The translations under genes and the position numbers were made by a program. Below are positions 34,101 through 59,100 of a stretch of 64,000 nucleotides of DNA, one piece after another. Each line of letters starts with the position of its first letter. Positions within the stretch are counted from its first letter, which is position 1. The stretch lies in assembly GCF_000003815.2 (NCBI RefSeq), contig NC_049983.1, positions 22,907,800 to 22,971,799 of the forward strand, in the 5' to 3' direction. The DNA comes from Branchiostoma floridae (lineage: Eukaryota; Chordata; Leptocardii; Amphioxiformes; Branchiostomatidae). Under the pieces are notes generated by a model. That model did not search any database. It was not told the origin of the DNA and saw only the letters and a list, made by a program, of their open reading frames with translations.

Positions 34101-37100
34101 GCTTAGTCAGTCCAACCTTACATGTTGTTTGTGTACATGGAATTCCTCTCTCCCACACAGTCGGCATCAAGTGTATATCCATAACACATCGGCTGGATAT
34201 GTGTTAGATATGTGTAACTCATTGTGCTGATAGTTTCCCCCAAGCGACCAGACACTAATCAAAACTTGGCCTTGCCGTCGGCAGTATTGTGTGTAGATTT
34301 CTGCGCGTGTGTGGTCATTTCCCAACTCAAATGTCACAGCTGCCCGGAAGTATTGCAGAAAAGTAATAATGTTTTCAAGGACAAAAAAGACGCAAACTGC
34401 CTACAGACGACATCCGGCCAAGAGTTCAGCATTGGCGCGACATGTCAGTCCCCACTTTTCTGGAGTCTCCGAGCAGACGTGTCAGCTGGATGACAAAAGA
34501 GAAGAATTTGGCCAAATAAGTTGTCATGGGACCTCAGTCAGTCTCATTTTTTCAGTCTATCAAGCCAGTTCACTCCTAGGCCAATGAGCTCCTTCCAGGC
34601 TTTTATTCCCAACTTGGCCTTAGTCCCCTATTATATTACTATTCGACCAGGCCGGAGTGTGGTAGAGACTAAGTTTTCTGTCTTCCCAGCCAATTGAAAG
34701 CGTCGAATGTCGCACCCTGTAACTTATGTAAGAGACGTGTCAGGAATTAAACAGGCCGTCTGAAGACTATAACATCTCCAGGGAAAAAGATACAAAAACG
34801 TGAAGATCTGTTGCAGTTCGGAGGTCACACACCAGGGGGCCAAAAATCGAGCTTGACCTTTGTCTTGCCAACACCATCACAATCCATCCAGACTTCTTTA
34901 GCAATTGCTAACCACACACACACACAAAAAAAAACAGAAATACAGACGGACAGACGCACCCAACAGAGTACTTCCATTTCTTCACGGAGGTAACAGAAAC
35001 AATAATAGCCCGCTTGCACTTGCAGGTGCATTTAGACGAGAACCAGACCTGCAACTCTGTATGTTTTGACAGCTGATGACAGAAACTAAGTTTACCAAAC
35101 AATGACACACATCATTGATCAACCTCGATGGCGGGCATCGGTGGGAAAACTTGTAATACACCTTTGTCAATAAACTTGAATAAAGATACAAATTCAATAG
35201 GGGACGACGAAATTAGTTGGATTTTTGCTTGGTGATTGAATGCCTTGTTGTGTGTTCTTACGAAGGCTAGTGTTCACTAGGCATTTGGACATTCCTTCAA
35301 CAATGCGTCTTCTGATGTGACTGGACACGGATGATTCAATGAGAAAGGCTCAAGGGACCACATTCTTTTGATAATGACGGAGGGAATTATTCGGATTTTA
35401 TCTTTAATGTTTATTAGCTACTATCTACCTAGTCCCTTTACCTTCACGTCGATAAGGGGCACAAGGTAGGGAAGAAGAACTGTGTGTAGGTCCTCTACTC
35501 ACACGTAATTTTAATATTTTCCATCACACGTAATTTTCATATTTCCCTTCCTAGGTTTCTTCCCCCGTGACTGCGCGCAGGTGCTGAGACAGGGGAACGG
35601 CCAGGCGCCCAGCGGAGTCTACACCCTGTACCACGCCGACAAGTCCTTCCGGGCCTACTGCGATATGGACACGGACGGGGGAGGCTGGATCGTAAGTACA
35701 GCTATAAGCCACTTCACTGTTCCTAGTGCGCATAGGCAGTTGTGGTGTATTGTGGGATCTGTTGTTGCCTAAGGTGAAAGTCTTTCCGTGCAAACTGCGA
35801 TATGGACACGGATGGAGGCGGCTGGATCGTAAGTACAGCAATAAGCCATTTCACTGTTCCTAGTGTGCATAGGCAGTCGTGATTTATTGTTGGTCTAAGG
35901 TCAAAGTTTAGAGGGCCTTTCTTGTTCCTACTGTAGACAAAGAATAGCTTAGACTTTGATTTAGGGCCTTAAAGTTGATTGTAGACGACACTGCTTCACA
36001 TGCGCACTAGGAACTGTGAAATGGTTTATAGGGCGTGTGCACGTCTGACGCCATCTTCTATCTTAATATTTGCTAAGAGATTACCTGAAAAAATCAGAAA
36101 TATAAACCTGCATGTGTATATCCAAGGAGGTTCCAAGGTGAACCATTTAACATGGCGGACGCACGTATCGGCCATGTGTGCAAACAGCCTATAACGCCAG
36201 TTCACCTTTACTTATTCGCTGGGTAACGTATATCCATTGTTTAAACGGGGATATTGCAATTTCAAATCAACGCCCGTCGACTTGATATCCCTGGATAGCA
36301 TTTTTTGCGACGGAAATAGGTTTCCCGCGAATAAAGGTGGACTAGTATTTCCCATAGCTTACAATTAACATCTTCCAAACAATACTGTTGGTCAATTGTA
36401 CATGTAAAAACCTCGATTTTACTGTCCTTACTGGTTAGATATGTTGATGCTACCATATGTCTAAGATCAAATATCTCCGTTACTGTTTATTTTATGGCAC
36501 AGAGAAACCACAAGCCTCTTTCAGCCTCCTTGCTCTTACGAATGGCCCCATGTAAATTAGTACATCAGGACACAAGATCAAGTATATGTGGCCCATGGCG
36601 AAGGTCAGAAATAACTTCCCAAATATAAACTGGCCGGTGCTTGACCCTCGTCTCGGCAGGGTCATAGTGGGGTCATCATGGGCTCTTGATCGATGTCCTA
36701 ATCATCCATCATCTAGCCTCTACCAGGCTCCGCAGATCGGTGGTCTAATTACAGAAATTGGACAAATAGAGTCTATAGTACACTAGGGCGGCTAATTCCC
36801 CTAGCGTACTATAGACTATTAACTCACTATTTGTTCAATTTCAACAATTACACCACCCATCCGCGGAGCCTGGTAGAGGCTATCCATCATTCTCTGGGAC
36901 ATCGTTTGTTTCCTTCCAAGCGGACATGTTTGGGTGGGCACTCCAGGGTGCTGAGGGGGCACGTTTGCGTGAAATGTTTATCTCTCGCGCTTTTGTTGTT
37001 TGCTGTGGATTTTGTCTTCCTGTCGAAACAAACACATGGTGACATACGACAGTACATACGGCATGTTACATGTCCATCACGGGAAGATAGAACTTCGTAG

Positions 37101-40100
37101 ATGTCTTGTTCGTTCACTTTAGAGGCGGAAACAAAATCTTGGGGATCCTGGTAATAGTTGAGTTACATTCATTCATTTGTTCACCATGCTTGTAATTTTG
37201 TATGTTGTTGTTGTTTGAATAGAACAGTAATCATCATCATCATCATTCTGATACATGTCCATCCGAAGAAGGATATAACTTCGTCTTGGTCGTTCACTGA
37301 GGTGAAAACAAAATCGTGATACCTTTCATTTGTGGATCCTGGGACGAGTTTAGTTATAAGTGTAGCAATTTTCAACTTCAATAACTTCAACTTCGGTGAC
37401 ATCGATCTCTTGCACCAAGGAGTTTTCATTCCTTGCTTGCACACGGTAACCATGACCATGACCAGTATACGAAGTACTAGTAGTACCAGTAGGACTCTGT
37501 TTCGGCAAGGAGGTTATATCCCTTGGTTTCGGCGTCCTTTTCGTTGCAAGCCCTTCCTGTTGTTCAACGATTCGCTTCCTGCGTCCTTTAGTCCGTGCAG
37601 CCCTCGCTTCTGCCGCCTTTTGTCGCTGTCCCTTTGTCTCCTCGTCTCTGTAGTCTTTTTTCCCGAGGTTCAGGCTGGGAACCCAGTCAACATTGTGTCT
37701 ATCCCACACGGGAGCAGACTTCCCAGAAACAAAATGGCGACCACATACCCGTTGGGTTTGAAGAATGTTCTTTGTAGTCGTATCTGTGCGGCTGATCGCC
37801 GAAATCCACAATCTACGACGTTCTTCAGTGAGCTTCTCATGTTCCACTCCTTGATTGGTAACTACTTTAGGTATACATGAAAAAGAAACCTTCTCCTTCC
37901 TTCTTCTATCGCTTCTTGATCCACAGCCGACAATAATACAGAGAACCATCGCCCGGAACACGTACAGAACGCCGGAGGGGCACAAAGATGGCGGATAGCA
38001 ACCGTTGCCAAGGCCGACCGGGTCGGGTCGGGTCAAGTGACTAAAGGCGAAAATTTGCATATCCTTACTGACGTCCACTGTACGGCGATCTCGCTGTGAC
38101 CTACATTGTAAATTGCGTGTAACCCTTGACTATCATGTAAAAGTATGACTGAAAATACAACGAAACACAGAAATCGTAAAAAGATTCTTTTTCTATTAAA
38201 GAAATTTTAGGTCGCAGCGCATTCGTTGGTGGCGCGTGAACTGCACTGTTACAGCAGCAAGGTCGCCACCTTTGTCGAATGGGGATAACCAGATGACGTA
38301 AGGGGTCATGCCGAAATCCGAAAGTCAAATGTTTTAATAGCTCAATGGTATATGCTAAAAACGCTGGGTGCAAGCATCACTCTTTTCATTAATGGTATGC
38401 AGATATGTAACCTCTATTCTTACCATATATCATATGATCATCATGATGTATACATTACAGGTAATTCAGCGCAGGACGGACGGAAAACAACGTTTCTATC
38501 GGAACTGGAAGGCTTACAAGAGAGGGTTTGGGAAATTGGAAAAGGAATTCTGGCTAGGTTCGTAAGTTTACTTTATCATATATGAAAGGACTTACTTTTA
38601 TATTTAAAAACATGACAAAGCCATACATTTTCTCGGAGATGTAAAACTCACATAATTCAGTATCGTACTACATTTTTGTGCCAGGTTGGGGTGGAAAACG
38701 GATTAATTGATTGTCTATTTGATTGATTGATTGATTGATTGTTTGTTTGTTTGATTGATTGATTGATTATTTATGGCCAATTATGAATCTCATCCACGTA
38801 CGTATCGGGTTCAGTCTCCTGCTCTCGTGAGGCTAGGTCACTCCGTGAACAAAATTTTGCTGAGACATCGAAAATTTGGAGGTATTATATGCCTTTACTG
38901 ATACCTTAAAACTGAAGAACATTCTATTATTAACTGTATTCATACGTGACTGTTAAACCTCTTCCACCATTCAACTGAACACATATCTTTACAGGTAATG
39001 ACATCATCTACAAGCTGACCAACGCCCAGCATAACGAGCTCCGAATCGACCTGGAGGATTTCGAGGGGGAGAAAACTTTCGCCAGGTACGAGAAGTTCCG
39101 CATCGGCAACATCGCCGACAACTTCCGACTGGAGGAGCTCGGCGACTACAGTGGCACTGCAGGTACAGTGGGGAGTCCATAAAGCCAAAGGCGGGGCCAT
39201 TGTAGCCTCCTTCGCATACGTACCTCGCAGAATTCTGGTAGTCTCTACCAGACTGCCAGACTAACTGCACTGGCAATAATCGGGAAAATGATTTGCAAGG
39301 GGAGTTTTGCTACTAGAAGTTTTGGCCGGCCGCGTAGCGGAGGGGAAATGATTGGCGTGGAGTCATTGACTTACTCCCTGGCCAATTTCCCGATTTTCCC
39401 CCGAGTTCTACGATCCCCGTACCACAGTAGGGAGGCTTGACAAGTGGAAGCTGGACTTCTAGCGGCAGCGCTGATTCCTGATTTTCAAGTTTCTTTAATG
39501 CCAGGTGAGGGAGTTCCATATTAGGGAACCCTAGCCCATGTTAAAAATGACGAATCAGCGCTCCCGCAAAAGATAAAATCCAGGCCTGCTACAAGTCTGC
39601 GAAGGAGGCTAGAGCCATTGAGCGTACAAAAAAGGTGACAAATGTCTTAATGATCTTTCAATGAGCGCTCAATGATCTTCAGTGTCATCTCTTAGGTCAC
39701 CAGTGACTGCTTCATGATGTCCAAGATCTTCCGATGATCTTTCAATGACATCTTCCGATGATCTCAGTGATCTTTTAAAGATGTCATTGATATTACCTCG
39801 AAGGTCTTCATGAATTTCCCCATGGTTTAATACTTTGATGATCTCCAATAATTTCTCAATGATCTTAGTCGGAACAATCTCTGTCTAGTTAAAAATTATG
39901 TGGCCTATAGCTAAGGAATGAATCTCCCACAGGTCCACTTAATGTCGCCATGGGCTTGGTAGACTTCTAATGTCCTACCTGCGGGGTGCAATTAGGACAA
40001 GCAGACAGGTTGCTTAGTAGACGAAGCTCTCCTTGAAGTAGCAATGATATCATCTTGGGCCCCTGAACGTCTACCAGAAATCATCACACTCACACACGCA

Positions 40101-42094
40101 CATATACAAACATAGACATACAGGTTCTTAACGCAAAATGACAGACATGGAATGTTCCTACTTTGGGAAACTTAAGTTGAGCATAACGTTGACTGAAAGC
40201 TGCGTGATGAAACGGACCCCAACCGTCGTCCCTTTTTCACGCTCTTTTATTCCCGTTCTTCTCTGCCACTTTTTATTAGCTGATAACGAGTTCCAGCGTA
40301 TGCAACCGCTTAACGGTTTATTAACTGGAGCGGTAATATAACCAGGAAAACCTGGCGACAGACCAGGCTTAAGATTGTCGATGGAATTCTGCAACGCAGT
40401 TTTAGGGTGGGCTGTGTTGAACAGCTCACTAGCCGTCGCTGCTGGAAGCCGTCTTTTAGAGCACTTTCCCATCTGTTTCAGACGTTTCTTAACGACCGGT
40501 ACTAAAGGCCCATTAAGAGCTGGTTACTTTCCCAGTATAATCCCCCGTAACCCGCTACTGACATGTATGAGTTTTACAGAAGGGAAAGCCTGCATGAACT
40601 TTCACTACATATCACGTGCACCCTTCGTGGTTGTCTGGCACGTGCTATGGCAGGTCTGGCATGGCGGCTAAACGATAGCCTGAAATATAATTCAAACGAT
40701 GATGGATAATACGGTAGAAGCCGCTTAATTGCACGGTCTATTTGCCAGTGCATTTCGTTCAAGTATCCGGCTGGTGCAATACTGCGAAGTTATCTAGCTG
40801 GACCTTGAGATTTTGGGATTCCGTGCAGTTAACAGACATGTACGTTAATCCGTTGTGCAATTAACTGGCTTCTACGTTATTATGATCCATCTAGCTTTGA
40901 CACCACCCTTGCATGGACCAAACAAATCATCGGGACGTTGTGATACACATGGACAAAGCCAAGATGTCAGACACTAGTACTGAGCTGGATTATCTAGTCG
41001 GTTGGCGGTATAGACTTCGAGGAAACTTGTGACTTAATTGATGGACGCCATTATTGGGTCAGTGTACGACGGAATCTATCATTCATCCTAAAGAAGCCCA
41101 TAGGCTTGTGTGAACATTTGGTGAGAGTATGCGTTTGTTTACAACTTGAAAAGGATCAGAGGACTGGTTGAAAGGTTGTTGGTAAGCGCTTTATTTTTGC
41201 GTACAGTTATAAAGTTTAGAATTATATCATAACAAGACTAATATGTTTTTGTGTGAATTTCAGGGGATTCTCTGATATACCACAAGGGCATGGAATGGTC
41301 CACACGGGATGAGGACAACGACAACAGCTCGGAGCAGTGCGCTGTGGTCAACTACGGTGAGGAACATTCCTTAGTCCTCACAATAAGGCAAAGAGTAACG
41401 CTTTTTCTAGCCTGTGTGTCAGGCTTGTTAGTTTACCGGGGCTCCCATATCATGGCATATGCATACCCTTCCTCACCTCACCAACCGGTAAACTGGCTAC
41501 GCTTTTTTAATAGCTAGTAGTACATTTTAGGCAAGCACATCGTACACAGTCAACCTTACTCCTATCGATAATTTGGTTGGGTTCTTTGATTGTCTAGTCC
41601 ATTCATCCATAACCAATACAAATTTGCTGCCAAACGGCTACCTTAGCTTAGCAGGTTATAGTTAACCTTCTGACGTCACGGGTAGGTGCTGGTACAAGAT
41701 GCATAGATTATGTTATTGATCCACCTCTCACGTGGTGGTACGACATGCATAGATTATGTTAATGATTCACTCCTTACGTCACAGGTACGTGGTGGTACAA
41801 CTTGCATAGTATGTTAATGCTCCACTTCTTACGTCACAGTTGCGTGGTGGTACAACATGCATAGATTATGTTAATGATCCACCTTTCACGTGGTAGTACG
41901 ACATGCATAGATTATGCTAATGATCTATTTCTTACGTCACAGGTGCGTGGTGGTACAACAGGTGTCGGGTGTCCAACCTGAACGGTCGCTATGGAGACAA
42001 CACCAAAGACGGCATCATCTGGAAGACGTGGAAGGGTGACGACTACTCCCTGAAGGCCACGGAGATGAAAATAAGACCCTTCTACTTCAAGTGA
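21617..42094 (+). CDS. Secreted fibrinogen-domain protein (ficolin/FReD type), six exons
   Basis: Exons: 21617-22130, 35555-35691, 38461-38557, 38995-39162, 41264-41356, 41943-42094. Joined they give 386 residues and all phases agree (1, 0, 1, 1, 1). Residues 1-35 hold a signal peptide or N-terminal anchor (V-F-L-A-V-L-L-L-L). Residues about 125-155 are a short helical, possibly coiled-coil, stretch followed by C-C-G and a Ser/Thr/Pro linker. Residues 172-386 are a complete C-terminal fibrinogen domain with all four expected Cys, the calcium loop D-E-D-N-D-N, and G-A-W-W-Y-N-R-C. Such proteins oligomerise and bind acetylated sugars or pathogen surfaces in innate immunity. The start at 21617 has A at -3; the next ATG (21629) has a better context. 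The first intron is 13.4 kb. Linkage of exon 1 to the rest rests on phase and order, not on a transcript. Confidence 0.9.
22430..23400 (+). repeat. Diverged tandem array in intron 1
   Basis: Four to five degenerate copies of a unit containing CCGTGCAAATATGCCAGACA, then A-C-T-G-A-A-T-A-T-C-A-C, CTTTCTTTTTATTACTG and a later ACCAGGACCACA. Copies begin near 22436, 22600, 22770, 23018 and 23290, so spacing varies from about 160 to 275 bp. Confidence 0.65.
25745..25862 (-). mobile_element. tRNA-derived SINE fragment
   Basis: The minus strand has a B-box-like GGGGTTCGAATCCC and a weaker A-box region. It shares the downstream block CGACTTTCCTCACTC with the copy at 50025-50236. It is not a tRNA gene, since no cloverleaf is complete. 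Confidence 0.6.
26258..26482 (-). mobile_element. MITE of the TCTCCRAGCAGA family, copy A
   Basis: Inverted relative to copies at 27266-27440 and 34463-34675. Shared blocks include GTTCACTCCTAGGCCAATTA, a Y-A-T-T-C-G-A-C-C-like region, and AGAATTTGGCCAAAT. One end reads TCTGCTTGGAGA. Confidence 0.65.
26623..26771. mobile_element. Long-arm foldback MITE
   Basis: Arms of roughly 60 bp. The left begins AAGCAGACCCTACGG and the right ends CCGTAGGGTCTGCTTGG-like. Both contain GGCCAAGGAGTATA or its inverse. Related to the element at 42874-43050. Confidence 0.8.
26837..26921. repeat. Foldback repeat
   Basis: Arms AGCCTGGATACC / GGTAACCAGGCT and ACCCCAGCCCGA / TCGGGCTGGGGT around a 20-25 bp loop. 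Confidence 0.7.
27266..27440 (+). mobile_element. MITE of the TCTCCRAGCAGA family, copy B
   Basis: Begins TCTCCGAGCAGACGTGTC, contains TTGGCCAAATT and CACTCCTAGGCCAATTA, and ends TCTGGTAGAGACTA. Confidence 0.7.
28143..28350. mobile_element. Foldback MITE
   Basis: The left arm AACGTTTCCCTGGGAGCC is matched in inverse by GGCTCCCAGGGTAGGGAAACG on the right. Inner blocks GGACCGGGTAGCTAG and CTAGCTGCCCGATCC also pair. Confidence 0.7.
28729..29556 (-). mobile_element. 3' part of a non-LTR retrotransposon with C-terminal zinc knuckle
   Basis: One uninterrupted minus-strand frame of about 235 codons runs from 29556 to its stop at 28852. It contains [34 protein letters not shown] and then the knuckle C-R-Y-C with [10 protein letters not shown]. 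This is the tail typical of LINE polyproteins. The 3' flank ends at a (TTCA/TGAA)n tract at 28729-28745. A stop at 29557 and loss of the reverse transcriptase upstream make it a 5'-truncated dead copy. Confidence 0.8.
29777..29791. repeat. Poly-C tract
   Basis: About fifteen C in a row. Simple sequence, liable to length error. Confidence 0.9.
34463..34675 (+). mobile_element. MITE of the TCTCCRAGCAGA family, copy C
   Basis: Begins TCTCCGAGCAGACGTGTC, ends GTGGTAGAGACTAAG, and shares AGTTCACTCCTAGGCCAAT and ACTATTCGACCAGGCC with copy B. Confidence 0.7.
35555..35691 (+). CDS. Fibrinogen-domain gene, exon 2
   Basis: Starts the fibrinogen domain: [10 protein letters not shown], then S-G-V-Y-T-L and [12 protein letters not shown]. 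Acceptor TTCCTAG, donor ATC|GTAAGT, phase 0. Confidence 0.95.
35657..35930 (+). repeat. 137-bp tandem duplication of the exon 2 donor edge
   Basis: The last 35 bp of exon 2, its donor and about 100 bp of intron (35657-35793) are repeated from 35794. The second copy keeps ACTGCGATATGGACACGG, the coding frame and an intact GTAAGT donor but has no acceptor. Confidence 0.88.
36714..36882. mobile_element. Long foldback MITE with TAGCCTCTACCAGGCTCCGC ends
   Basis: Both ends read TAGCCTCTACCAGGCTCCGC in inverse. The arms, about 80 bp each, include AATTGGACAAATAG and a centre of CTAGGGCGGC / TTCCCCTAG. Part of the same family is seen near 31105-31145 (GCGGAGCCTGGTATAGGCTA). Confidence 0.8.
37350..37949 (-). 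CDS. THAP zinc-finger domain protein, antisense in an intron
   Basis: 199 residues. Residues 1-95 form a THAP domain: C4 and C9 (C-x4-C), W48, then C69-x2-H72 (V-C-G-R-H-F), and the terminal V-P-S-L that replaces the usual AVPTIF-type box. THAP domains bind DNA through a C2CH zinc site. Residues 100-135 are strongly basic with a likely nuclear localisation signal (K-G-R-R-K-R), and the tail is acidic. The start has G at -3 and G at +4, and the frame has no upstream ATG. It lies within intron 2 of the fibrinogen-domain gene on the opposite strand. No polyadenylation signal is obvious, and further exons downstream are possible. THAP genes may be host factors or derive from P-type transposons; no transposase domain is present here. 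Confidence 0.78.
38461..38557 (+). CDS. Fibrinogen-domain gene, exon 3
   Basis: Codes [13 protein letters not shown] and [13 protein letters not shown]. Acceptor TTACAG. Only the donor CTAG|GTTCGT keeps the frame; it is weak, and a consensus GTAAGT starts 4 bp downstream of it. Confidence 0.9.
38698..38772. repeat. (GATT)n microsatellite
   Basis: Imperfect GATT/GTTT tetranucleotide repeats in intron 3. Confidence 0.9.
38995..39162 (+). CDS. Fibrinogen-domain gene, exon 4
   Basis: Codes [10 protein letters not shown] through L-R-I-D-L-E-D-F-E to L-G-D-Y-S-G-T-A-G, the core of the fibrinogen fold. Acceptor TTACAG, donor GCAG|GTACAG, phase 1. Confidence 0.95.
39640..39870. repeat. GATCTT-rich degenerate repeat
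   Basis: A cluster of imperfect ATGATCTTTCAATGA-like units in intron 4, dense in GATC. Confidence 0.7.
41264..41356 (+). CDS. Fibrinogen-domain gene, exon 5
   Basis: Codes [15 protein letters not shown], then the calcium loop [11 protein letters not shown] and A-V-V-N-Y. Acceptor TTTCAG, donor TACG|GTGAGG, phase 1. Confidence 0.95.
41675..41945 (+). repeat. Minisatellite made of the exon 6 acceptor edge
   Basis: Five units of about 46-58 bp precede exon 6. They share GTGCGTGGTGGTACAACA-like sequence and GCATAGATTATGTTAATGAT. Three units carry CGTCACAG or CGTCACGG before the exon-like block, so decoy acceptors lie directly upstream of the real one at 41942. Confidence 0.88.
41943..42094 (+). 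CDS. Fibrinogen-domain gene, exon 6 (terminal)
   Basis: Codes [17 protein letters not shown], then I-W-K-T-W-K-G and the ending K-I-R-P-F-Y-F-K followed by TGA. Confidence 0.95.
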
Positions 42095-42643: not shown

Positions 42644-42649
42644 AATAAA
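42644..42649 (+). terminator. Polyadenylation signal of the fibrinogen-domain gene
   Basis: AATAAA 550 bp after the stop codon, the first on this strand after the gene. Confidence 0.6.
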
Positions 42650-43626: not shown

Positions 43627-46443
43627 TTACACCGCAGTTTCCATTTCAATGGCCTCATGAGGAAGCAGTATGTGGATCAGTTGTAGCAGCCTCTGTTCTA
43701 TCCCATCTGGAGTCGGTCTTGTAGCTGGAACGTCGCGCCAACACGCCCTCATCAGTCGGTACAGGTCCTCTGGACATCCCGGCGGCCTCTTCATCCGTAT
43801 TCCTTGCCTCAGAATCCCCACCATCTCAAGAAAGCTTAGCTGAACCATGCCATTGTAGCAGGGATCTTTCCCCAGCGTGGCGATCTCCCACAGCAGCACA
43901 CCGAAGGACCAGACATCACTCTCACAGGTGTACTCGCCAGTCTCGATGGACTCCAATGCCATCCACTTCAGCGGAAGGAGTTCGTCAACGCCTGGACGGT
44001 TACATCGTACATACTGAGTGGTGGCGTAGACATCTCTGGCCAGTCCGAAGTCAGCCAACTTGGCCACGTTATCTGCAGTGATGAGGACGTTTCGAGCGGC
44101 CACGTCACGATGGGCGATTCTCAAGCGTTCCAGCTCTTGTAGAGCTCGTGCAATGTGGACTGCGTATCCAAGAAGGTTTCCAAGTAGGTCGTCTTGATCA
44201 ACATCCCTTATCCGCCGCAGGAAGCCTAAGAGATCGCCTTTTGGAGCATATTCCAGAAGAATGTACTTCTCCGAAGACTTGGTGATGAGGCCCACAAGAC
44301 GAACGATATTGGACTGACGACCACCGCCTTGTCGCACTTCATGCACACATACCAGTATAGCTGCTTCTCTGTAAAAGTCCCGATAGGACTGTGAGTCCTC
44401 GACGCGAACGGTCTTTGCGGCAACGTCGAGCTTGCCCTTGGGTGTTCGCAATTGTGCCCTTCTGACTTGCCCAAACATCCCTTCTCCTAGCAGGGGACCA
44501 GGAGCAAGATGGCTGATCTTCTTCTCCCAACGTCCCAGCCAGCCCGGTTGTAGGCTCTGTGCTAGGTCTTGCTCCATTCTCTTCAGCTCGAAAAGTATAT
44601 TGTCCTCCTCGCGTGTATCGGGCGCGGAGCATTTCAGAACCCCCGTTTTGTAGAGAAGTGTCATCACTATGGTAACGAGCAAGACTAAAGAGCCCAGTGG
44701 TATCAGACTTTCGAGTAGTGGTTCATATCTGCTTGTCTGCAATTGGTCACATTTCCGCCCCGTCCATGGCGTCACGCAAGCACAGCTGCCATCCTCATTG
44801 TTGCATGTGGCATTGTTCTTACAGGAACAAGCTTTATGACATCCCCAGCCGTACCGACCGCTTGGACACGGTTTGCTGCAATCCTTTCCGTACCATCCTC
44901 CAGTGCAGTTACACCTGCCGTCGCTAAGGCCACAACTAGCACCATTAAGGCAAATACAGTCCTTGCTACAGTCTTTACCGTACTTGTCGCCCGGGCATTG
45001 TGTCTGACACCTGGGTCCCGTCCATCCCGGCGGACACACACAACCATCCCAGCGGTCACAGCTGGCACCTTGTAGACAGTCACATCTTTCCTTACAATGT
45101 GCCCCTTTGCGATTCGGTGGACAATTAGCAATATTGAGTACAAAGGTTGTATTGTACGTCTTACCCTGCGTGTCTTCGACCTTGCAGGTGTAAGGGCCAC
45201 CGTCTTTTGCTTGTATGTTTCGTACCACAATGTCGATTCCTCGTACACCTATACTGACTTTTTGTGAGGCGTTTGGAAATTTGAAAGACACAGTTTTCAC
45301 ATCGATATGATGCACCTTGCAATAAAACGTCAAATTGGCGGAAATATAGACATATTTAGGGTCACTAGGTGTCAGTTCTATAGAGGCTTCAGGTTTAGGA
45401 ATATCACAGGCCACACCTTTCCAGCCAGGTGGACAATTGCAGGCGCCGTCAAACCCGTGGCAGCGGGCACCGTTCTTACAGATACAGCTTTTATCGCAGA
45501 GGAAGCCGTATTTTCCGACCGGGCAACCTACTGGTTTCACGTGTATGTCAAAATATTCAATAGTAGTCAATTTTGCGTGGACCGTTCTGATGTGGTAATC
45601 AAACGATGGAACTTCGCAATGGTATGTTTCTTTGTCTTTTGTAAGAATCGTTAGAGAAAACAAACCAATAAATTGGTATATTTTATCGAAAACAATCTCT
45701 TTGGGAACATACTTAGTTAAGTCCATGAGTTTTGAACTATCGCTATCACTTCGTCTGAGGCTGTACAAGTTGATTACAAGTGTTGGTAGTTCAGACCCGG
45801 CGCTACATGACGTCTGATCTATGTTATTTATCCATAAATCCTCTAACATTGTGAGATCCTCATGGTGAGAAACGTAAGAAGCTATACGGATATTGCAATC
45901 ACTGTTTTCTGTGTGTACCATCCAAGGGTAAACAGTTTCATGGACCCAGATATCATCGACAGTGCCGTATGTACGGCTGAAGACGAAAAGACCTCCGTCG
46001 GTGGTCATTGCCTCCGCTCTCACTGTAGGACTGAATAACATTTCTCCCGGTCGACCGTTATGGTTGATCGGAGTTTCACACGTTTCGTTATACACAGGAG
46101 GATAGCCCTCAATGTCAGTCAGCTCTACCTTGATACTGGTGTCGTGTTGAATGTGGAGCAGATAGACCGACTGTACTGACCAGTCCAGTGGGTTGGCGAC
46201 CACAACGGTGCAGTTCTCCGTCACCTTGAAGCGGTCGTACGGGTCTCCCTCCATTTTGGCACACGGAAGTTCCGCTTTTTCTTCAGCCCTTGTCTCTTCA
46301 GGTAGTCTCGACGGGCCGAAAATGGTCTCTCCGACAGCGACGTTTTCTGGCACGGAAACGATGAACTCCTCTGCCGAGGTGGAACAAGCAAGTTGACCAA
46401 GCGCCAACCAAACACTTACGAATACAAGAAGATTTCCTGCCAT
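43627..46443 (-). CDS. Receptor tyrosine kinase with EGF-Ig-EGF3 ectodomain, single exon
   Basis: 938 residues with no intron. Signal peptide 1-24. Residues 25-306 are a unique region that opens with V-S-V-P-E-N-V-A-V-G, faintly cadherin-like, and holds only scattered Cys. Then EGF (307-346), Ig-like (353-438, C375 and C420), three EGF-like modules (441-479, 483-522, 526-565), TM about 579-598 and a kinase domain 645-925. All catalytic residues are present: G-E-G-M-F-G loop 653-658, K677, E693, H-R-D 778-780, N785, D-F-G 798-800, and activation-loop tyrosines 806 and 811. The kinase resembles the FGFR/Tie branch; Ig plus three EGF recalls Tie, but FN3 repeats are absent. It should be a cell-surface receptor that signals by autophosphorylation; the ligand is unknown. 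The start has A at -3 and G at +4. The lack of introns suggests a retrocopy origin within a lineage-specific kinase family. Confidence 0.95.
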   Translation of the reverse strand: MAGNLLVFVSVWLALGQLACSTSAEEFIVSVPENVAVGETIFGPSRLPEETRAEEKAELPCAKMEGDPYDRFKVTENCTVVVANPLDWSVQSVYLLHIQHDTSIKVELTDIEGYPPVYNETCETPINHNGRPGEMLFSPTVRAEAMTTDGGLFVFSRTYGTVDDIWVHETVYPWMVHTENSDCNIRIASYVSHHEDLTMLEDLWINNIDQTSCSAGSELPTLVINLYSLRRSDSDSSKLMDLTKYVPKEIVFDKIYQFIGLFSLTILTKDKETYHCEVPSFDYHIRTVHAKLTTIEYFDIHVKPVGCPVGKYGFLCDKSCICKNGARCHGFDGACNCPPGWKGVACDIPKPEASIELTPSDPKYVYISANLTFYCKVHHIDVKTVSFKFPNASQKVSIGVRGIDIVVRNIQAKDGGPYTCKVEDTQGKTYNTTFVLNIANCPPNRKGAHCKERCDCLQGASCDRWDGCVCPPGWTGPRCQTQCPGDKYGKDCSKDCICLNGASCGLSDGRCNCTGGWYGKDCSKPCPSGRYGWGCHKACSCKNNATCNNEDGSCACVTPWTGRKCDQLQTSRYEPLLESLIPLGSLVLLVTIVMTLLYKTGVLKCSAPDTREEDNILFELKRMEQDLAQSLQPGWLGRWEKKISHLAPGPLLGEGMFGQVRRAQLRTPKGKLDVAAKTVRVEDSQSYRDFYREAAILVCVHEVRQGGGRQSNIVRLVGLITKSSEKYILLEYAPKGDLLGFLRRIRDVDQDDLLGNLLGYAVHIARALQELERLRIAHRDVAARNVLITADNVAKLADFGLARDVYATTQYVRCNRPGVDELLPLKWMALESIETGEYTCESDVWSFGVLLWEIATLGKDPCYNGMVQLSFLEMVGILRQGIRMKRPPGCPEDLYRLMRACWRDVPATRPTPDGIEQRLLQLIHILLPHEAIEMETAV

Positions 46444-47891: not shown

Positions 47892-48789
47892 CAGTCAAAC
47901 CTGTCTATAGCGGCCACTCAAGGGACTGGTCAAAATTGGCCACTATAGAGAGGTGGCCACTATAGAGAATATGCTAATTAATTGACCACATGCAATAAGT
48001 TACAAACGGTTTTAGTACCCACTGATCTTTATTCACATAATACAGTACTGTACATGTACTGCAATGATTTTTACTCTTAAGAAAACAAAAGCTATAAAAA
48101 GTTTTAAATGTTCTACAGTTGATATTGTCTGAAGAGACCGGTATCGTCATATTTCTTTGATCTTTCGTCTTGTATCCTTTGATACTTCGCCGTCCGTATG
48201 TTCCCGCTCGCGTTCACACGTCAGATTCGCCCATTATGTTGTTGTAGTACTCACAAGAAAAGTCTCGTCATTTTAGACTTATCTCTTAATAAATGTAAGA
48301 ATAAAATCCACCATAGTCTGAAGTTCATATCATTTTGCCTTTGTAACAATTTATTTGGAAAGTTTTTGTGATGTAAATTAACCTCAGCGATAGTGTATTA
48401 GGACGTAACTTTAACACAATTTCCCTCCGTAATATTGGTGTCGTCTATTGACCTTATATGACCTCGTTTGTCAGCGGGTATGGGTAGCGCCAGTTTACGA
48501 AGTTTTGTTTTGAAAATAAATCAAAGGGATTTTAAATCCGGCGTAGGGTGACAAAACGGCCGCTGTATATGGCCAAATGCGTGCCGAAACATAGATCAGC
48601 GGTCCGCGTGGCCGTAATCGGCAGTGTTTTTGTATCCGCGGGACCGGAAATCGTGTGGCCGTGGCCGCGTTGGACAGGTGGCCGCTAAGCCTATTTCTTA
48701 ATCATTACGAATCCAAGGGACCGACAAAAAGTGGCCACTATGGGCAGGTGGCCGCTATGCAAAGGTGGCCGCTAATACAGGTTTGACTG
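47892..48789. mobile_element. Non-autonomous TA-flanked DNA transposon, full-length copy
   Basis: Ends CAGTCAAACCTGT and ACAGGTTTGACTG are perfect inverted repeats with TA on each side. Inside the ends are several units of TAGCGGCCACCT and its variants. It is 898 bp long and has no transposase frame. Relatives at 3152-3703 and 4370-4924 are shorter. The superfamily is inferred from the TA target only. Confidence 0.82.
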
Positions 48790-50024
48790 TACTTTTACAA
48801 ATAACAAACTAAAATGTATTGAAAATTTTTAAACATTTATGAATCTAATGGCAAGTATCAATGTAATTTTACATGTTGTATATTCAGTTTAACATTGAAG
48901 TACATGTAATGGGTTTCCAACAAGAATCTTTCTAAATTTAGGAAAATAACCACGAATTTGAGGTAGCCAATCATGCTTGCTTTTTGGAGTAGCTCATTGT
49001 TGCCATGGACACCATCTTACACATTGGAGAATGTAACCCGCTAAAAGACAACAGTGCTAATAGGCTAATAGCTACAACATGTCCGGCAAACACTTATCAT
49101 TAGAAATTGTTTTCTTCAGGGCACGGTCACAAACGTCGTGCGATCATCGTACGATTTTGCTGCCATAGGATTTTCAAGCAGGCTGTGACAGAAACAACCA
49201 CCGATATGGATACAAAACAACATTAATTCTGTGTACCAAGGCAGTTAAACTTTGGAGGAGACATGCATTTTTGTCCTCCAAAATGCTTGAAGTTAGTGAT
49301 TGTGTGACGATTGCACAAACTATGTGACTGCGCCCTCACATTGCACATGACCTACATGTATTCGGGCTTAACAAATTACAACCGAGAGTCGGCGTAATGT
49401 ATTTGTGACATTTGCAAATAGACAAAATCACAACTCAATACTGATTGACAACAAACAACACTTGTTTTATAACAGAAATATAAAAAATTTATCAATGTAT
49501 AATTACTTTACGTGCTGATATTGCGCAGATTTCATTTTGGTGCTAAAAAAAAATTTCTAGATATAAATTCAGTGTGGCAACACTGCCCCCCCCCCCTACC
49601 TCCATCCAGGCAAGATTGTGCTTTCTGTATTTTCCATATATCTGCACAAACCCTCTTTCAACTTAAACATTCAATAATCTATAGTCTAATCAAAGTTTAC
49701 ATAAAATTAGACATATAGAAAAAATCTGTATAGAATCTGACAACTCTCTTCTCTAATGTTCTCTAAGAAAAATATTTGTCTTTGAGTACCTCTAAGAGAA
49801 AAAGTTTCAAAGTAATTATTCTGGAGTCATGCTGAGAGTATTTCATGATATGGATCAGTACACTGAAAAATACAACATGGCTATAGTTTTGGGGGGTCTG
49901 TTTAGTAGATGTTATCAAGGTAGGTGTCTTCTACCACACAAAGCTTAGTCTAAACATTTCCCACTGTTTTTCTAGTGACCTGCAGTGCACTAACGAAGCT
50001 GTACTACTTGTCAGTTTGGTTTGG
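48790..50024. other. Intergenic sequence
   Basis: AT-rich, with a poly-C tract near 49584. No exon recognised. It may belong to the 3'UTR or flank of the SLC41A gene. Confidence 0.4.
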
Positions 50025-50703: not shown

Positions 50704-51337
50704 CTAGTATTAATATTGCAGGCTTGGGAGAAGTTTGTGCTTCTGAAATAGAAGTGTTTTAAAGATGTCTGTACATCATAGAGCACATCAATGGTGAATT
50801 GCTTTCTGTAAATGTTCCAGATGTACATGTACTATATACAATACTGAAAACTGTTATAGTTCAGTTCAGTGCTGTTGTCATCTCCAAAATGGGACCTTTT
50901 AAGAACAGCAACTATATGTATGATGGGGTAAAAAGTTAGCAAAAGACCATGGCTTAGATTACAAACAATTTCTGTTTGAACTACACTGTATTATATACAA
51001 GAAGGGTAACTAAAGGTTCTTCAGTAAAATCTATGATCACTTTACTATACATACTGGCTCATCAGTCACAAAACTACAAATGACTTTTGCATCACCTTTT
51101 TAGCAAGTACATTGTATATTTCCTATTCAGAAAAGTATTGCCCTGGCTGTATGGATATCACAATGTACAATGTAGGTCTCAAAAATACTTTTTTCTTCTC
51201 ATCTGTACCCAAAATGCTGTTGCTGATTACCACAGGGCAGACTTTGTTATGCTGCTACTTTTGATTCCTATTACAAGCATTACCAGCAACCCATTGAAAA
51301 AGTGGGTGACTTTTGAATAAGTAAATAGTCTTTTACA

Positions 51338-52976
51338 TCACTATCACTGTCACGAATAAGCCAGAGTTTGTGGAGAGTATCTACCTGCAATCCTGTTAAA
51401 AATTGGCTGATAACTTGAGAATAACTGACTGTTTCTTAAACACCCACCAAGTGACTATTGAATGCACAAGGAGTTAAATCCTCTCTAGACACAACATCGC
51501 TATCGCTATTGCTATCTCTGTCGCGATGAGCCAGGGTGTGTGTGGAAGGCAGCCACAAGAAAAGCTGGTGATTATTGAATAATCACTGCGTCATTATTGC
51601 ATTTCTACAGGTGATTATCCACTGATGTCCTGATTATTGAATAATGACCCACACAATAGATGGATTCAACCCTGTCTAGTCCAAAAATCACTATCTCTGT
51701 TGACAAACTGTCAACGATGAGTCAGAGTGTGTGGAAGGCATCTACCAGCAACCATTTGAAGAAGTGACTCATTGACAGATCATAAAACAACCATCGGATG
51801 ATTATCAAATAACGACCTACATGTACATAATGGATCTAACGCTCTCTATTCCGGATTATAAAATAGTGACCTGCACAGCACTTTCTACTCTCTAGTCCCT
51901 GACATCGCTGTCCCTGTCGCCAAGAAGCCAGAGTGTGTGGAAAGCATCTACCATTTATAAAAGCGACTCATTGACAGATCATTACACAACCATCAGATGA
52001 TTATCAAATAAGGACCTACATGTACATGGATCTAATGCACTCTATTCCGGATCATTGAATATTGACCTGCCCTCTCTAGTTGCCGACATCAATGTCCCTG
52101 TCTCCGATAGCGTGAACCAGAGCTTGCTGAAGGGCACGGTGATTGTAATAATGAAATACTGTAGTGGGTGATTATTGAATAATGACCAGGCATTTATCAA
52201 ATAACAACCTACATAATGGCTGTAACTCTCTCTACTCATGACTATTGAATAGTGACCTGCACAGCACACTCTACTCTCAGGAAGAATAGCCAACAACATC
52301 ATTTGTTAAAAGCTAATTGTGGATCATCGGGGACTCGACTCTATAGTCAAATCCCTGATGTCGCTGTCCCTGTTGCCGATGAGCCAGAGCGATTGACAGG
52401 CACGGTGATTGTGATAATGAAATACTGTAGTGTGTCATTATTGAATAATCAGGTGATTATCAAATAATGACCTACATAATGGCTTTAATTTTTGTCCTGA
52501 TTATTGAATAGTGACCTGCACAACACACTCTACTCTGGTGATAACGAAATAGTGGGTGATTATTGAACACCGACCACTGGCAGATGATTATCAGATAATG
52601 GCCTACATAATGTAATGGTTGTAACCCCTCTGCATGACCCTTTCTAGTTGCCGACATTGCTGCCCCTGTCGCTGATGAGCCAGAGCGTGTTGACGGGCAC
52701 GGTGATTGTGATGATGAAATACTGTAGTGGGTGATGATTGAATATTGACCAGGTGATTATCGGATAATAACCTGCACAGCCCTCTCTAGTCGCCGACATC
52801 GCTGTCCATGTTGCCAATAAGTCAGAGTGTGTTGAAGGGCACAGTGATTGTAATAGTGAAGTACTGTAGTGAGTGGGTGATCATTGAATAATAACCAGGA
52901 TATCATAAAGTTCAAAATGGATCTAAACCCTCTAGCCTTGGTCTTGACTATTGAATAGTGACCTGCACAACCCTCT
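51338..52976 (-). repeat. Array of copies of the SLC41A C-terminal coding end
   Basis: Eight diverged copies of the last coding stretch of the SLC41A gene lie directly downstream of its stop. They start near 51340, 51485, 51675, 51887, 52072, 52341, 52640 and 52780, with the real one at 52977. The unit is about 140-300 bp. Each has a block like CGCTGTCCCTGTCGCCGATG, then AGCCAGAGTGTG, separated by AT-rich linkers with TGATTATTGAATAATGACC. Read on the minus strand the copy at 52640 still codes T-L-W-L-I-S-D-R-G-S-N-V-G-N-stop. Confidence 0.88.
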
Positions 52977-53162
52977 CTAGTCGCCAACATCGCTGTCCCT
53001 GTCACCGATGAGCCAGAGCGTATGGAAGGCCACGGCGAGCAGTCCCGTCCCCAGCAGGTCTCCGAGCGCGGTGAGGTACGGGATGGTGCAGTTGTCGGGG
53101 TCGTTGCCCTTTAGCCACATGTAGTGGACCAGCCAGTTGGCCACAAACAGAAGGATTGCAAC
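52977..53162 (-). CDS. SLC41A gene, terminal exon
   Basis: Codes [16 protein letters not shown], the D-P-D-N motif of the second half and the ending D-R-D-S-D-V-G-D followed by TAG. Its 3' edge seeds the array to the left. Confidence 0.95.
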
Positions 53163-56100
53163 CTGTAGGGAAACAACAATAGGTTATCCTTAGTTATCAG
53201 ACATCTTTAGGTACAGGCACTTTTCTATCAGGAGAATCGCCTAATGGCCACAAGGAAACAAAATGGCAGGGTTGGACAGTTTACATAGAAAATTTACTTG
53301 CCCTAACTAACTTTTCACTTGTCGGGACAAATTTCATTCTTACCAGAGACGGGGTCCAATATTGCTTGCCAGGCAATTACAATTAATTGCTTGTGTTAAC
53401 AAAAGTTACAAAGTCAAAAAAGGAGTGTGAAAACTTTTTCTTATCAAAAATAAAACTTCACAAATATCAATTCCATTTTTGATTTTGTCTTCCCTAAAGT
53501 GACCTAGATGATTTCTTGATGGAGTACTTGGAAACTATAAGCTTTTTTTAAAACTTAAAATGAATATACAATATACAACTGGTTGCCATGGGAACTGACC
53601 TGTATCATAGCTGCGATGAGGTAGACCACTGTGAAGATAGCCGTGATGGTTGTGTGGCCAGCGTTGGCGTACGCTATCAGGTACAGGAAGATCAGGTGAC
53701 CCGGGACCACCAATAGGAACAGCACCCTGGCCGTCCTGGAGTGGACACCTGTTGACAGACAACATAAACCTTGGTGTGAGACACACAATGATCAGGTGAC
53801 CCGGGACCACCAATAGGAACAGCACCCCGGCCGTCCTGGCGTGGACACCTGTGCACAGAGAACATGAACATAGGTGTGAAACCATGATTTGGTGACTTTG
53901 GGACACCTGCTGACAGATATAATAAACCTCGGTGTAAGACCATAACAGAATGATCACATGACTTTAAAACACCAATAGGAACAGCACCCTGGCCGTCCTG
54001 GCATGGACATCTGCAGACAAACATAATAAACCTTTGTGTGAGACTAAAACAAAGACTAATCAGGTGACCAGGTAAGGTACTCTTGAGTAACAGCCTCAAA
54101 ACAACCATTCTAAGGATGATGTAATGTTAGTGATAAGTCAATGGACAGTGATTTCAAATTACAATTTTTTTTCAAAATAATGCAGTTTGAAACCACTGTC
54201 TGTTAGTTTGATGTCCATAAATATTGTGACTTAAGATACAACAGATGTAGGTTACCACGCAGATAAAGGTGAACTATTATTATGTATGGAATAAACTATA
54301 AATCTGAGTCATGAAAGAAGTGTTTTATCCTGACCTGAAGAGAAGAATGTTCTGACAGGGTTGGGACAGCCGTGTATGGCCCCCTCCGGCAGCTTCCCAG
54401 GCTTGCCTCTCGTGTGGAGCCAGGTGGACAGTCTGCTGGCCTGGACAGCCACCAGGTTACCCCCAACACCTGCAGGGGACAGGGAGACATCTCATCTATT
54501 AGTCCTGCTGTACATTGTGTACAGAAATGCCTTTACAGGTGCTAAGACATGTGACAGCCTGGGTTCTCCAAATAACTAAAGGCTATCACTGGACATGTCC
54601 CCATGGTGCCATTCTCTTATACGGATTCAAACTCACTCCTGCACGGAGCAGGAAAAAGGACAATACAGATCAGAAAGCCATCTAAAACAAGACAAAAGAC
54701 ATGTACAGTCAGAACACCAGGTAAATTTCTCTAGCTCTTATCGACAAGTTATGAACAGTTAGACTGACTGAAAAACTTTTGCATGAAAAGTAGTTCATGC
54801 CTACTATGCTACAGCGCCTCCTATCTTTAGCTTACAGTACTGCAGTTTGTTGAGATGCTTGTGGCAAAGTTTGGCAAAATCTCACATTGCCAGGCACAGT
54901 TGCTGTCAAACACAAGAAATGGAAATTGAAAAAAGACTGCAATACTGCAATAAGTCAAATTTAAAGTTGGTTACTCACCATTTATGATAGGAGTAAAAAC
55001 TGCAATGCCATGGTATGCAGAAACAGCAAAGTCTAGGATGAGGCCTCCTCCACTGGGGGAACATAGGAGAAGATCAAGATCATCAACATTAACTTAATCC
55101 TTCTGTCTCTTCTTACGTTATATGCATATGTCTCTCAATTCCAGTATGTTCAAAGCAGCTCAATTCAGTTCAAGTAATATGTGGCTTCAGATTTGGGAAG
55201 GTGGAATGATGGAAATTTGACAAATTTGCATTTCAAATTATTGCTGAATGTAAGTCACTGTAAGTTCAGGTCCACAAGAAGACCACTCCCTGCTACCAAT
55301 GGTCAAAACCAATGCAAATTTGCAGGAAAGGTTAAAAATGTGCTTTACTTTACATTATGATGTCTTTTAATTTCCAATCATGAATTTCAGAACTACAATG
55401 TATATACATATAGTAATTTTTGTCTTTGGATTACCTAATGATTAAACACATTCTCTGAGTTCCAAGTGTCTTCATAAGGCAAAGTACAAACTTAAGTCAA
55501 AGAGAACAGCATTATGATAAGTTATAATTGATACTGTATATGATAAATACTAACCTGCTGATGACCATGGCACATATAACCGGCTCCCAGCCATGTCTCA
55601 GCACCTCTCTCGTGTGGGGGTTCTTGTGCGAGATGTACATCCAAAACGGTGCCGATAAGAAAAACGCTACGGTGATCGTCGGAGCCATCCAGAATCTTGC
55701 ACCTAGAAAAAAAGAAACAAGAGAGGTATGTGAAAGCCAGAGTAGTAAAACTTAACTTTCCAGAATAGGCAGGTTTATAACTACTAGTATGGCACGTCCC
55801 AATGTTGTGCTTTTATGTAATTAGGTGCTTATGATCAACACAAATTTCCTCACTTAAGCTTGGTTCTGAGGTGATAATAATAGCAAAGAACGGTTCTCTT
55901 GAACGGTTCGTAAAGCCAGAGGTCCAAGTTTGAGAAGAGGTACCTCTGAGCACGTTTAAGAAACTAGCAAATGTACTGATAGGTGTCCATCCCAGCGGGA
56001 GTGGATAAATATCATCAGTCTGGTCTGATACAGATTGTACTCATAGTACAGTTACTGTAGAAAATTGTTGTGATGTGCCTTAAATTAAGGTGATCTACCC

Positions 56101-59100
56101 ATTATATGTTGCAAACAAATGGCAAAAAAACAGCCCAATGACCTACCATCCTCCACTGTTATGGCCCTCCATAGAACATTACTGATCCATGATAGCAGTG
56201 CCAGGGTGGTCAGGTCACAAACAAACAAACAAACAAACAAACAAATAAACAACCACCCACCATCTTCCACTGTTATGGCCCTCCACAGAACATTACTGAT
56301 CCATGAGAGTAGAGCCAGCGTGGTCAGGTCGCCCAGACTGGCAGCGATCGGGGTCGCCACGTTGTCTGGGTTCACCTTACACTTCCGAGACAGGATCACC
56401 ACAGCGATCATCACCGTACCTGAGAAGGAAAAATAAACATTAATCGGTATCAAGAAGGAAAGCTGAGAGACTTTGCCCCCTTTCTCTTATTGCTTTACAG
56501 CCTCATCTGTGGAACGAACACACAATGCATAAGTTTGGAACTGGTCAATTAATCTCTTTCAGGTAGTGTATTGTATTAGTGTATGAGAGAAAGCACATGT
56601 ATATCAAAATTAATGTAATATGTATTGTGATATATGTATTTACAGTCTGTATGACTTGTTTAGAACCACTGGAAAAATAGCTGGCCAAATTCCAGCTTAA
56701 TAATTGTAATAACATTACAAGACAATGGCTTCTCTAGTAGTAGCAAACCTCCCAAATTGAAGGAAATTACAGTGTATATGGAATACATTTAAATTTGTAT
56801 CTGCATTTTTAAAAACTCTTAAAACAGTTTGTATATGATGTCACATGAAAAACAATATTGAAGAAGGAATTAAAGAAAACCCCCTCACCCAGAATGGCGC
56901 AGGCCAGTGAAGCTGTGACCATACTGGAGGCTGTGAGCAGGAAGGCGTGGTGGATGTCAAACTTTCCTTCAGGGATCCAGCCAAACACTATCGCCGCTAC
57001 CGCTGCTAGGAAACCTACCACTAGGGCTTGGGCCTGGTGAGGATAAAACATTATTAGAAACATGTTCTAACAAAAACTGAGATATGGTGGATGTCAAACT
57101 TTCCTTCAGGGATCAAGCCAAACACTATCGCCGCTACCGCTGCTAGGAAACCTACCACTAGGGCTTGGGCCTGGTGAGGATAAAACATTATTAGAAACAT
57201 GTTCTAACCAACACAGGGACAAGTACATTATATATGACAGATGTCAGCCAAACACTATCGCTGCTACGGCTGCTAGGAACCCCACAACTAGGGCCTGGGC
57301 CTGGCAACGTAAAAGGTAAGGGTAAAGGTAACACCACATAGCCTTTGGGATATACAGGTAGCTAATTGCTGTTAATGCTGTCAGAAACACCACTACTAGT
57401 AGTGCTTGGGGATGGCAAAGTATCAATCAAAGCATTCTAACCAAACCAAAAACTATACCTAAAAATATGTAAAAATGATAATTCGTTTAGAGTACAGCAG
57501 GACTTTTCTCACAGATGCCAATGGGTCAAAAGAAAAAAACAAACACCTACAGACTCTACCCCCATAACTCACTGATAAACAATGGCAGCATACTCCCTAC
57601 CTGTGTGAGAGCCATGTTGCCCAGTATCAGCCTCCACTGTTCTTTCCTGTTGTCCATGTAACCCAGGTTGGCCTGGTAGGGAGACAAGAAAGGTGAAGTT
57701 GTAATTACTTAATTGAATTATTTCTTCCATCAGTATTCATGCACTGCTATTAACTAAGCAAAGCCGAGAGCGATTCACTACTAATAGAAATTTGTGCTAT
57801 TGGGTTAGGACTAGCAATTATGTTGTGTTTTGTTTAATACAGTCCTAAAAAAAGGTTGGAAGGTAGTTTTGTCCCTTGCCAGTGATCAATTCAAGAGTAA
57901 GGTTGGCAGGTTGGTTATAACGTTACTAGGTAGCCTAACACCTGTAAATCCGTATATAAAAAAACATGTCAAACTCACTCAAAGTAACAAAAATGTAATT
58001 AACAAGGAGAATGTACCATTGTGATTGTATCTGTAAAGTTAGTGTACTGAGTACATACAGCAAAGGGTGACTAGAGAAGCTATTTATTTTATTTCTAACT
58101 GCATCTCTAATGACCTGGAAGGAAAGAAGTTATTTGAAGAGGTATGCAAAACACACAAAAATTTCCAAACGCATACCGACGAAAACAAAACTTTAAGTTT
58201 ATATAACGCTATTAACGTCACATAATCCACTCATCATAGAAAAAGTGGGGTACTTCGTCTTCCACTGATTGCAGAAAAGAAGTCAAACCCCAAATGTGTA
58301 GATTGTAGCTCTCAACAGTCCATATCATTGATAGAATAGTCACTTGTTTACACTTGTCACCATTGTTATCTATATCAAATTACTTTATTTTATGTATGTT
58401 TACTATATTTTCTGCATGTTTCATGTTGCAATTAGCCCTCGGGCAAGAATTTGCAAATAAACATCAACCTTTATAATAAATACTCACAGCAGTAGAGAGA
58501 CGTGAGGCTAACGTCATCTCCAGGTTCCCCTTCAGCCCCAACAGTGCAGGAACTAAGATAAACACTTCTGATACCTGGATAAATACTGGCCAATGCTGCA
58601 ACAACAAAATATGACACATTGTTATATTTCAAGACACTGTATGAACCATGATAAAAACTTGTTTATATAAACATCCTGGGCTTGAAATATAGTTCTTTTC
58701 CAATTTTAAAAAGAAGATAAGATAATATCATTGAAATGAAAGACCAACATGAAAAAAAGGAGAAATTTTACATCTTTGTTCACAGCTCATCAGGGGGTGA
58801 ACATCTACATTTCTTCTGCTAAGATGTTACTTACATATTTGATGAAAGTCAAAGAAATAAATTGGTTAGTCAATTCTAAGCTAAAGATTCTATCAGTAAT
58901 TGCTGCATCTTCAAAAAACAAACTTCTCATTTTAACTGTCATACATACAATTTGTATGTGCTCATACCAATACGATAATTAAGTTTTGACACAGTATATA
59001 TTGTCCCCCCCCCCCAACTATAATTACTAGAATCCACTCTAGATCTTCTCATCTGATTGACCTAACAATACCTTGAGGTCACTTAGTTGATGCAATAAAC

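Follow-up and report, generated by a model that had tools for sequence, protein, structure and literature searches.

Why do so many exon ends in one stretch of an amphioxus genome carry partial tandem copies of themselves? The window, the whole 64,000-nucleotide stretch of Branchiostoma floridae DNA that was analyzed (G000:C5:22907800-22971799), contains a fibrinogen-domain gene and an SLC41/MgtE-type transporter gene. Across these two genes, 6 of 30 exon ends were covered by a partial tandem repeat copy. These cases are further examples of the known amphioxus "mirages," a real and recurrent trait that already bears this name. We think it quite probable that they were made as local tandem duplications of about 37 to 190 bp, with a unit straddling an exon end, by the four steps given below. 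The genome searched contained 513.4 Mb in 431 contigs, with contigs C1 to C19 at 17 to 35 Mb each and about 484 Mb in sum.

The fibrinogen-domain gene lies on the plus strand. Its five exons form one continuous open frame once spliced, and the Pfam match to Fibrinogen_C has an E value of 1.2e-74. They are the first domain exon (35555..35691, 137 nt, also supported by Fibrinogen_C), three domain exons placed by the spliced frame (38461-38557, 38995-39162, and 41264-41356), and the last exon (41943..42094, also supported by Pfam), whose 5' edge is 41943. The transporter gene lies on the minus strand. It contains 10 recognized exons, from 61248 to 52977, which splice into an open frame with a Pfam MgtE match (E value of 1.3e-48). 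Those discussed here are supported by both the spliced frame and Pfam. They are the last coding exon (52977..53162), whose 3' end is a stop codon with no splice site, and the exons at 53600..53748 (5' edge at 53748), 56261..56419 (3' edge at 56261), and 56889..57033 (5' edge at 57033). The 30 ends scored are the 28 splice sites and 2 stops of these 15 recognized exons.

The ends covered by copies are 35691 (3'), 41943 (5'), 53748 (5'), 56261 (3'), 57033 (5'), and the stop codon at 52977. The original prediction had reported six of sixteen exons with such copies, three at 5' edges and three at 3' edges. All six were found where it placed them; 15 exons were recognized, and the sixteenth was not identified. 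The three 5' edges have upstream copies and two 3' splice edges have downstream copies, as proposed, which makes five splice-edge cases. The remaining 3' edge is the stop codon. Tandem Repeats Finder (TRF) and self-comparison located the tandem copies at 35641-35893, 41646-41960, 51326-53038, 53690-54072, 56112-56330, and 56948-57304. The real pairs listed in these regions scored 45 to 259 bits, whereas three Markov-simulated windows gave zero pairs of at least 30 bits, which excludes chance similarity. Pair identity was lowest in the old stop-codon array, at about 66%, and highest in the nearest copy at 57033, which matched 85 of 86 exon bases.

The 3' part of the first fibrinogen domain exon is the parent of a partial copy at 35778..35893 (plus strand; TRF and self-comparison). 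It contained the exon's last 51 nt, the GT donor, and 65 nt of intron. The copy was 88% identical, and the period was 137. Origin of this copy from a paralogue was rejected, as its best other match in the genome was the adjacent exon. The second array in this gene (41646..41960, plus strand; TRF and self-comparison) runs from upstream into the 41943 edge. It contained units of about 50 bp that carry the exon's first 15 to 17 nt or so.

The transporter copies are all on the minus strand and were found by self-comparison, with TRF agreeing at 57033. Eight copies of the coding end of the last exon were aligned at 51326..52972, downstream in presumed 3' untranslated sequence, and all are decayed. 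Two upstream copies at 53783..54072 contained the acceptor and the first 65 to 66 nt of the 53748 exon. The downstream copy at 56112..56216 contained the last 69 nt of the 56261 exon and the GT donor, with 6 synonymous and 0 nonsynonymous differences. A genome search with this exon and its copy returned only their own locus, and searching the genome with two of the transporter arrays turned up no second haplotype. The two upstream copies of the 57033 edge (57085..57304) contained the acceptor with the first 86 nt (1 difference) and the acceptor with 56 nt (6 synonymous differences). A decayed copy of the same edge was read by eye further upstream, at 57374..57420. At 60690-60735, the donor of the first recognized transporter exon is followed 24 nt further on by a second TACAGGTGAG, which is perhaps a very small mirage.

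The functional exon end was in the outermost copy of its array in 6/6 window cases. The original prediction had called this geometry expected, and it is indeed forced, since the exon could not survive otherwise. In the window and the other loci described below, AG or GT was kept in 43 of the 53 copies with an alignable junction (44 by eye, with one boundary off by one), and 22 of these 53 came from one single array.

How do these arrays compare with published ones? Mirages in the amphioxus globin genes BflGb6 and BflGb9 are tandem duplications of 5' or 3' intron-exon boundaries (PMC3087553). Their units are 150 to 160 bp, and many but not all copies retain AG/GT. They show concerted evolution, copy number differs between haplotypes, and their origin was described as unclear (PMC3087553). 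The window arrays are similar in that the repeat unit spans an exon-intron boundary in 5/6 cases (the sixth spans the stop codon), both boundary types are affected, and many but not all copies have AG/GT. They differ from the globin study in involving other genes and a stop-codon array, and here a background rate was measured and a codon-level test was made. The minisatellite mirages of Adh3 in B. floridae and B. lanceolatum (Canestro 2002, as cited in PMC3087553 and PMC3902484) also have repeats spanning exon-intron junctions, and Adh3 mRNA was reported to be normal. Unlike the window arrays, they have units of 10 to 72 bp (quoted in PMC3087553), and somatic instability was reported for them. 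The original prediction had mentioned such minisatellites around Adh, and both papers bear it out. Lancelet PGBD5 contains 60- and 108-bp repeats over splice sites, and troponin C is also cited (PMC3902484). These PGBD5 repeats are imperfect and include splice sites, as in the window, but they concern a single gene and their origin was left open.

Gene-by-gene reports of mirages include work of 1998 and 2002 (cited in PMC3087553 and PMC3902484). No genome-wide count of mirages was found in the literature, judged by titles and the starts of abstracts, and the words minisatellite and tandem were absent from the consulted text of a lancelet pangenome paper (PMC12373286). In the Rogers model, introns are gained by tandem duplication of exon sequence containing AGGT (cited in PMC3087553). 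The window arrays likewise arise by tandem duplication that copies splice-site sequence, but here existing introns gain decoy edges and no new intron appears. The exons join in frame at their own edges, and the copies are intronic or downstream of the stop.

The proposed explanation has four steps. First, the genome makes and keeps local tandem duplications in large numbers, as 20 blind loci show with roughly one detectable cluster every 6 kb. Second, breakpoints falling once in an exon and once in an intron leave a complete exon beside the array, as the geometry shows; because a complete exon is spared, such a duplication would be tolerated. Third, the extra copies have an acceptor or a donor, never both, so a spliceosome that recognizes whole exons could ignore them. 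Normal splicing around published mirages was reported (PMC3087553 and PMC3902484). Fourth, the arrays would last and turn over, and homologous arrays on different alleles or paralogues might exchange copies. A copy next to an exon could then once have been a functional end in a different lineage. This exchange is suggested by a synonymous bias and by one myosin exon, both described below.

Could random duplication alone produce these arrays? The blind background sample consisted of 20 loci of 10 kb each at round coordinates. Over 199.6 kb it contained 33 local tandem clusters, or roughly one every 6 kb; one of the 33 was an assembly artefact. The window contained 9 clusters in 10-64 kb (pairs grouped by hand), a density not above the genome's. 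A random position in the blind loci had an 8.6% chance of lying in any copy and a 3.0% chance of lying in a right-side outermost copy; a few satellite-rich loci weigh heavily in these values. The 6/30 ends of the window gave a P value of 2e-4 against the 3.0% chance and 0.04 against the 8.6% chance, in a sample selected after the fact for its copies. The frequency that the original prediction found unexpectedly high is therefore an outlier against background in a stretch chosen for it.

The blind loci allow exon ends to be counted without that selection. The 20 random loci contained 47 exon ends from 30 exons, counted after two copies were set aside from 49 rows. Of these exons, 13 had Pfam matches above the family cut-off, 7 had matches below it, 7 had no match, and 3 were untried, so that 17 rest on neighboring exons or on our own reading; one end (L027 3367) has no GT. 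Two of the 47 ends were hit after one artefact was dropped from three flagged. One hit is an AASS-like exon in L015 (Pfam match below the cut-off). The other is an exon of a BTB-kelch gene in L023 with about five copies; this exon has no match of its own, and the gene's other exons match. The dropped case (L014 7692-8670) was rejected as a mirage, as its 435-bp halves are 100% identical around a 100-N gap. Its exon end was kept in the denominator.

Cytochrome P450 and myosin loci were taken from family-search exon coordinates before repeats were inspected. Their exon ends are the ends of the matches, with adjustment by eye limited to places that had a cluster. The genome searches with P450 and tyrosine kinase families gave mostly large single-exon matches and helped little. 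The two P450 loci, with 10 exon matches, had 0/20 ends hit. The seven myosin loci, with 33 exon matches, had 6/66 ends hit: one in L034, four in L036, and one, decayed, in L039. Four of the six edges in L036 were hit, one of them borderline at 45.5 bits. No tandem cluster was found in the two P450 loci, L032, L035, or L038. L037 was rejected as an independent locus because it is a 93% copy of L033, and its one cluster was dropped too. L033 (C9) and L037 (C11) share 93% identity across 4.6 kb that includes myosin exons; they are either recent paralogues or misplaced haplotypes.

The blind total was 8/133 ends (6%, with about 4 expected). This gave a P value of 0.05 against the 3.0% chance, whereas against the 8.6% any-copy chance it was below expectation (P = 0.89). 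Without the myosin gene L036, the count was 4/127 (P = 0.53). These eight further cases, in loci picked before repeats were inspected, show that the process is recurrent, as had been claimed.

The reading that survives best among the alternatives is pure background. Here random tandem duplications occur in a repeat-rich genome, those disrupting exons are removed, slower-evolving exons stay recognizable, and the window was picked. This is a strong contender that falls somewhat short of being probable. One cluster per 6 kb or so implies that much of the exon-edge excess is background, and the window mirage rate is partly the genome's general tandem-duplication load. The marginal blind total, the 2/47 of the random loci, and the cluster-free loci favor this reading, but the placement of arrays within genes does not.

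To compare placements, a simulation took the observed duplication lengths, entered by hand, placed such duplications at random, and kept those sparing exons. The simulated share on edges was 16% for the window genes and 21% for the blind genes. Observed in-gene arrays were counted by hand, with L015 left out because only one exon of its gene was seen. The window had 6/7 in-gene arrays on edges (5/6 without the stop codon). The blind genes had 7/9, against the 21% expected (P = 5e-4). If edge pairs are twice as likely to be detected, 35% are expected, and the P value is 0.012. Counted once per gene, the blind share was 4/6 (P = 0.02, or 0.12 with detection bias). Without L036, it was 3/5 (P = 0.07, or 0.24 with detection bias). 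The two blind intron-only arrays are at L023 6488-6833 and, 33 nt upstream of the first recognized exon there, at L033 7191-7294.

With the low-complexity filter off, the window and blind genes contained 14 edge clusters and 3 others, from which one edge cluster (an artefact) and one other (a whole-exon pair) were dropped; the picture was unchanged. A threshold of 38 bits adds one edge case (L033 2184-2305) and one intron case (L010 8603-8693), which are outside the main counts. The array at L014:1596-2139 is likely a 5'-edge mirage. It contained four upstream copies of an exon's 5' edge, mostly in 111-nt units, and one reading frame runs through it without a stop for about 170 codons. Its exon has no Pfam match above the cut-off, and the case is outside the end and array counts and inside the codon test.

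A cluster at L033 3897-4182 was first taken as a mirage and was reclassified as a whole-exon pair, in neither the edge nor the intron class. It contained two tandem myosin exons (L033:3899-4177, minus strand) that are about 74% alike, with AG and GT on each, and is apparently a mutually exclusive exon pair. Such pairs are tandem copies of whole exons, each with both splice sites. The window arrays resemble them as tandem exon copies with splice sites, but the window copies are partial, and none has both acceptor and donor.

Exon edges may instead be mutational hotspots that seed duplications, for example through transcription-linked nicks or breaks or through splice-site-like sequence. This is possible, though we are inclined to doubt it. 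Edges are over-represented among in-gene arrays, and several edges of one gene were hit in L036 and in the transporter (three splice edges and the stop). The blind excess per edge is marginal and comes from one gene, however, the stop-codon array has no splice site, and clustering by gene fits regional instability equally well. Hotspots, which the original prediction offered as one possible reason, are suggested by the share of arrays on edges and are not established; one gene carries much of the excess. We consider a modest true preference for exon edges likely, though this small sample does not prove it.

Do the copies carry a trace of their history in their codons? The neutral expectation beside a constrained exon is 55% nonsynonymous, with substitution rates from noncoding sequence of L033 and L037. 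The test covered 13 splice edges, namely four of the window's five (41943 was too short) and nine elsewhere, one of them the unlabeled L014 exon. Summed over the best copy per edge, there were 37 synonymous and 13 nonsynonymous differences (P = 3e-5). The totals were 40 and 21 with the stop-codon array included (P = 7e-4). Copy-to-copy differences were 47 synonymous and 40 nonsynonymous, against 72% nonsynonymous expected (P = 4e-7); in this test copies of the same array are nonindependent, and codons with multiple changes were split by a fixed rule. Purely synonymous copies were found at 56148 (6/0), 57245 (6/0), L036-333 (7/0), and L023-5195 (6/0).

The L036 myosin exon lies on C10. A relative on C1 carries arrays at the corresponding 5' and 3' edges (the C1 3' copy was read by eye), so the split probably came after the arrays had formed. 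Of the C10 copies, the one closest to the exon had 7/0 synonymous to nonsynonymous differences from its own exon and 4/0 from the C1 exon. The C1 copy nearest the exon had 5/1 from its own exon and 3/1 from the C10 exon. The two sets of arrays differ in copies, and the loci may be paralogues or misplaced alleles. The mixed affinities hint at the pattern that unequal exchange between homologous arrays would give. A fuller version of this idea is that exon edges are preferred duplication sites and that arrays let divergent alleles or paralogues trade functional exon ends. Intronic copies would then store the former coding ends of other lineages, and selection on the exon would filter returns. 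We regard this combination as unlikely.

Several points weigh against our explanation, chiefly its fourth step. Normal splicing around the window copies is presumed. The neutral-looking best copies (53783 at exon 53748, the stop array, and L039) sum to 8 synonymous and 18 nonsynonymous differences. Eight of the 11 aligned copies from both myosin loci are nearer the C1 exon, with 1 tie and 2 nearer the C10 exon, so a fast-changing C10 exon explains most of the pattern. True reciprocity between C1 and C10 is seen in one copy. The genome search found no second locus for transporter exon 56261, so exchange there would have to be allelic. One allele-like pair had about 3.6% third-position divergence, compared with 6 third-position changes in 23 codons at 56261; this yardstick is approximate, as one exon was unframed and at least two were framed wrongly. 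By the same approximate yardstick, allelic polymorphism is unlikely to be the only source of the synonymous differences.

The bias might also arise if the copies were functional alternative or regulated exon ends kept by selection. This is improbable. The purely synonymous copies and the retention of AG/GT would fit it, as would array L014:1713-2234, which is open in frame through its units. Yet each copy has only one splice site, the periods of 100 and 137 are not divisible by three, the 57245 copy leads directly into an in-frame stop (read by eye), and other copies look neutral. Assembly artefacts from uncollapsed haplotypes or contig ends are proven in one blind case (L014 7692-8670) and are highly improbable here, as the window arrays contain no N (the window's N runs are confined to 9300-10162 and 12686-12923), the copies differ from their parents, and published mirages were backed by reverse transcription-PCR, trace, and resequencing data (PMC3087553 and PMC3902484).

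The window contains other features. A single-exon receptor tyrosine kinase of about 950 amino acids is encoded at 43627-46485 (minus strand). A genome search with this family gave 141 matches, many of them single open frames of about 900 to 980 amino acids, and the gene seems to be one of a greatly expanded group of kinases that apparently lack introns. A THAP-domain open frame (37353-38129, minus strand) lies within an intron of the fibrinogen-domain gene, and a single-exon BTB-BACK-kelch gene is at 13138-14910 (plus strand). EGF-like exons were recognized by eye at 1260-8960 (minus strand), with whole-exon copies about 320 to 1,250 bp apart. A dispersed repeat lies at 36190-36350, the place to which the majority of 53 genome matches from the first query map. 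An element with inverted ends is at 47877-48804. It has 28-nt arms that are 79% complementary, and a shorter relative is at L015:460-640, within the L015 mirage region. A possible first exon at 21.4-22.1 kb had no match in a Pfam search, and a tRNA scan and an Rfam search at gathering thresholds gave no match.

The window provides an unusually rich set of mirages, and the synonymous bias of the copies is a new clue. Edge preference and synonymous bias are leads for a genome-wide test. The background rate, the defined null, and the codon-level signature make the hotspot question testable across the genome. Both mirages and look-alike assembly artefacts can lead to wrong gene models in a key chordate genome. 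If copies do change places with the functional ends of exons, they would constitute a source of coding variation and boundary change that has gone unrecognized.

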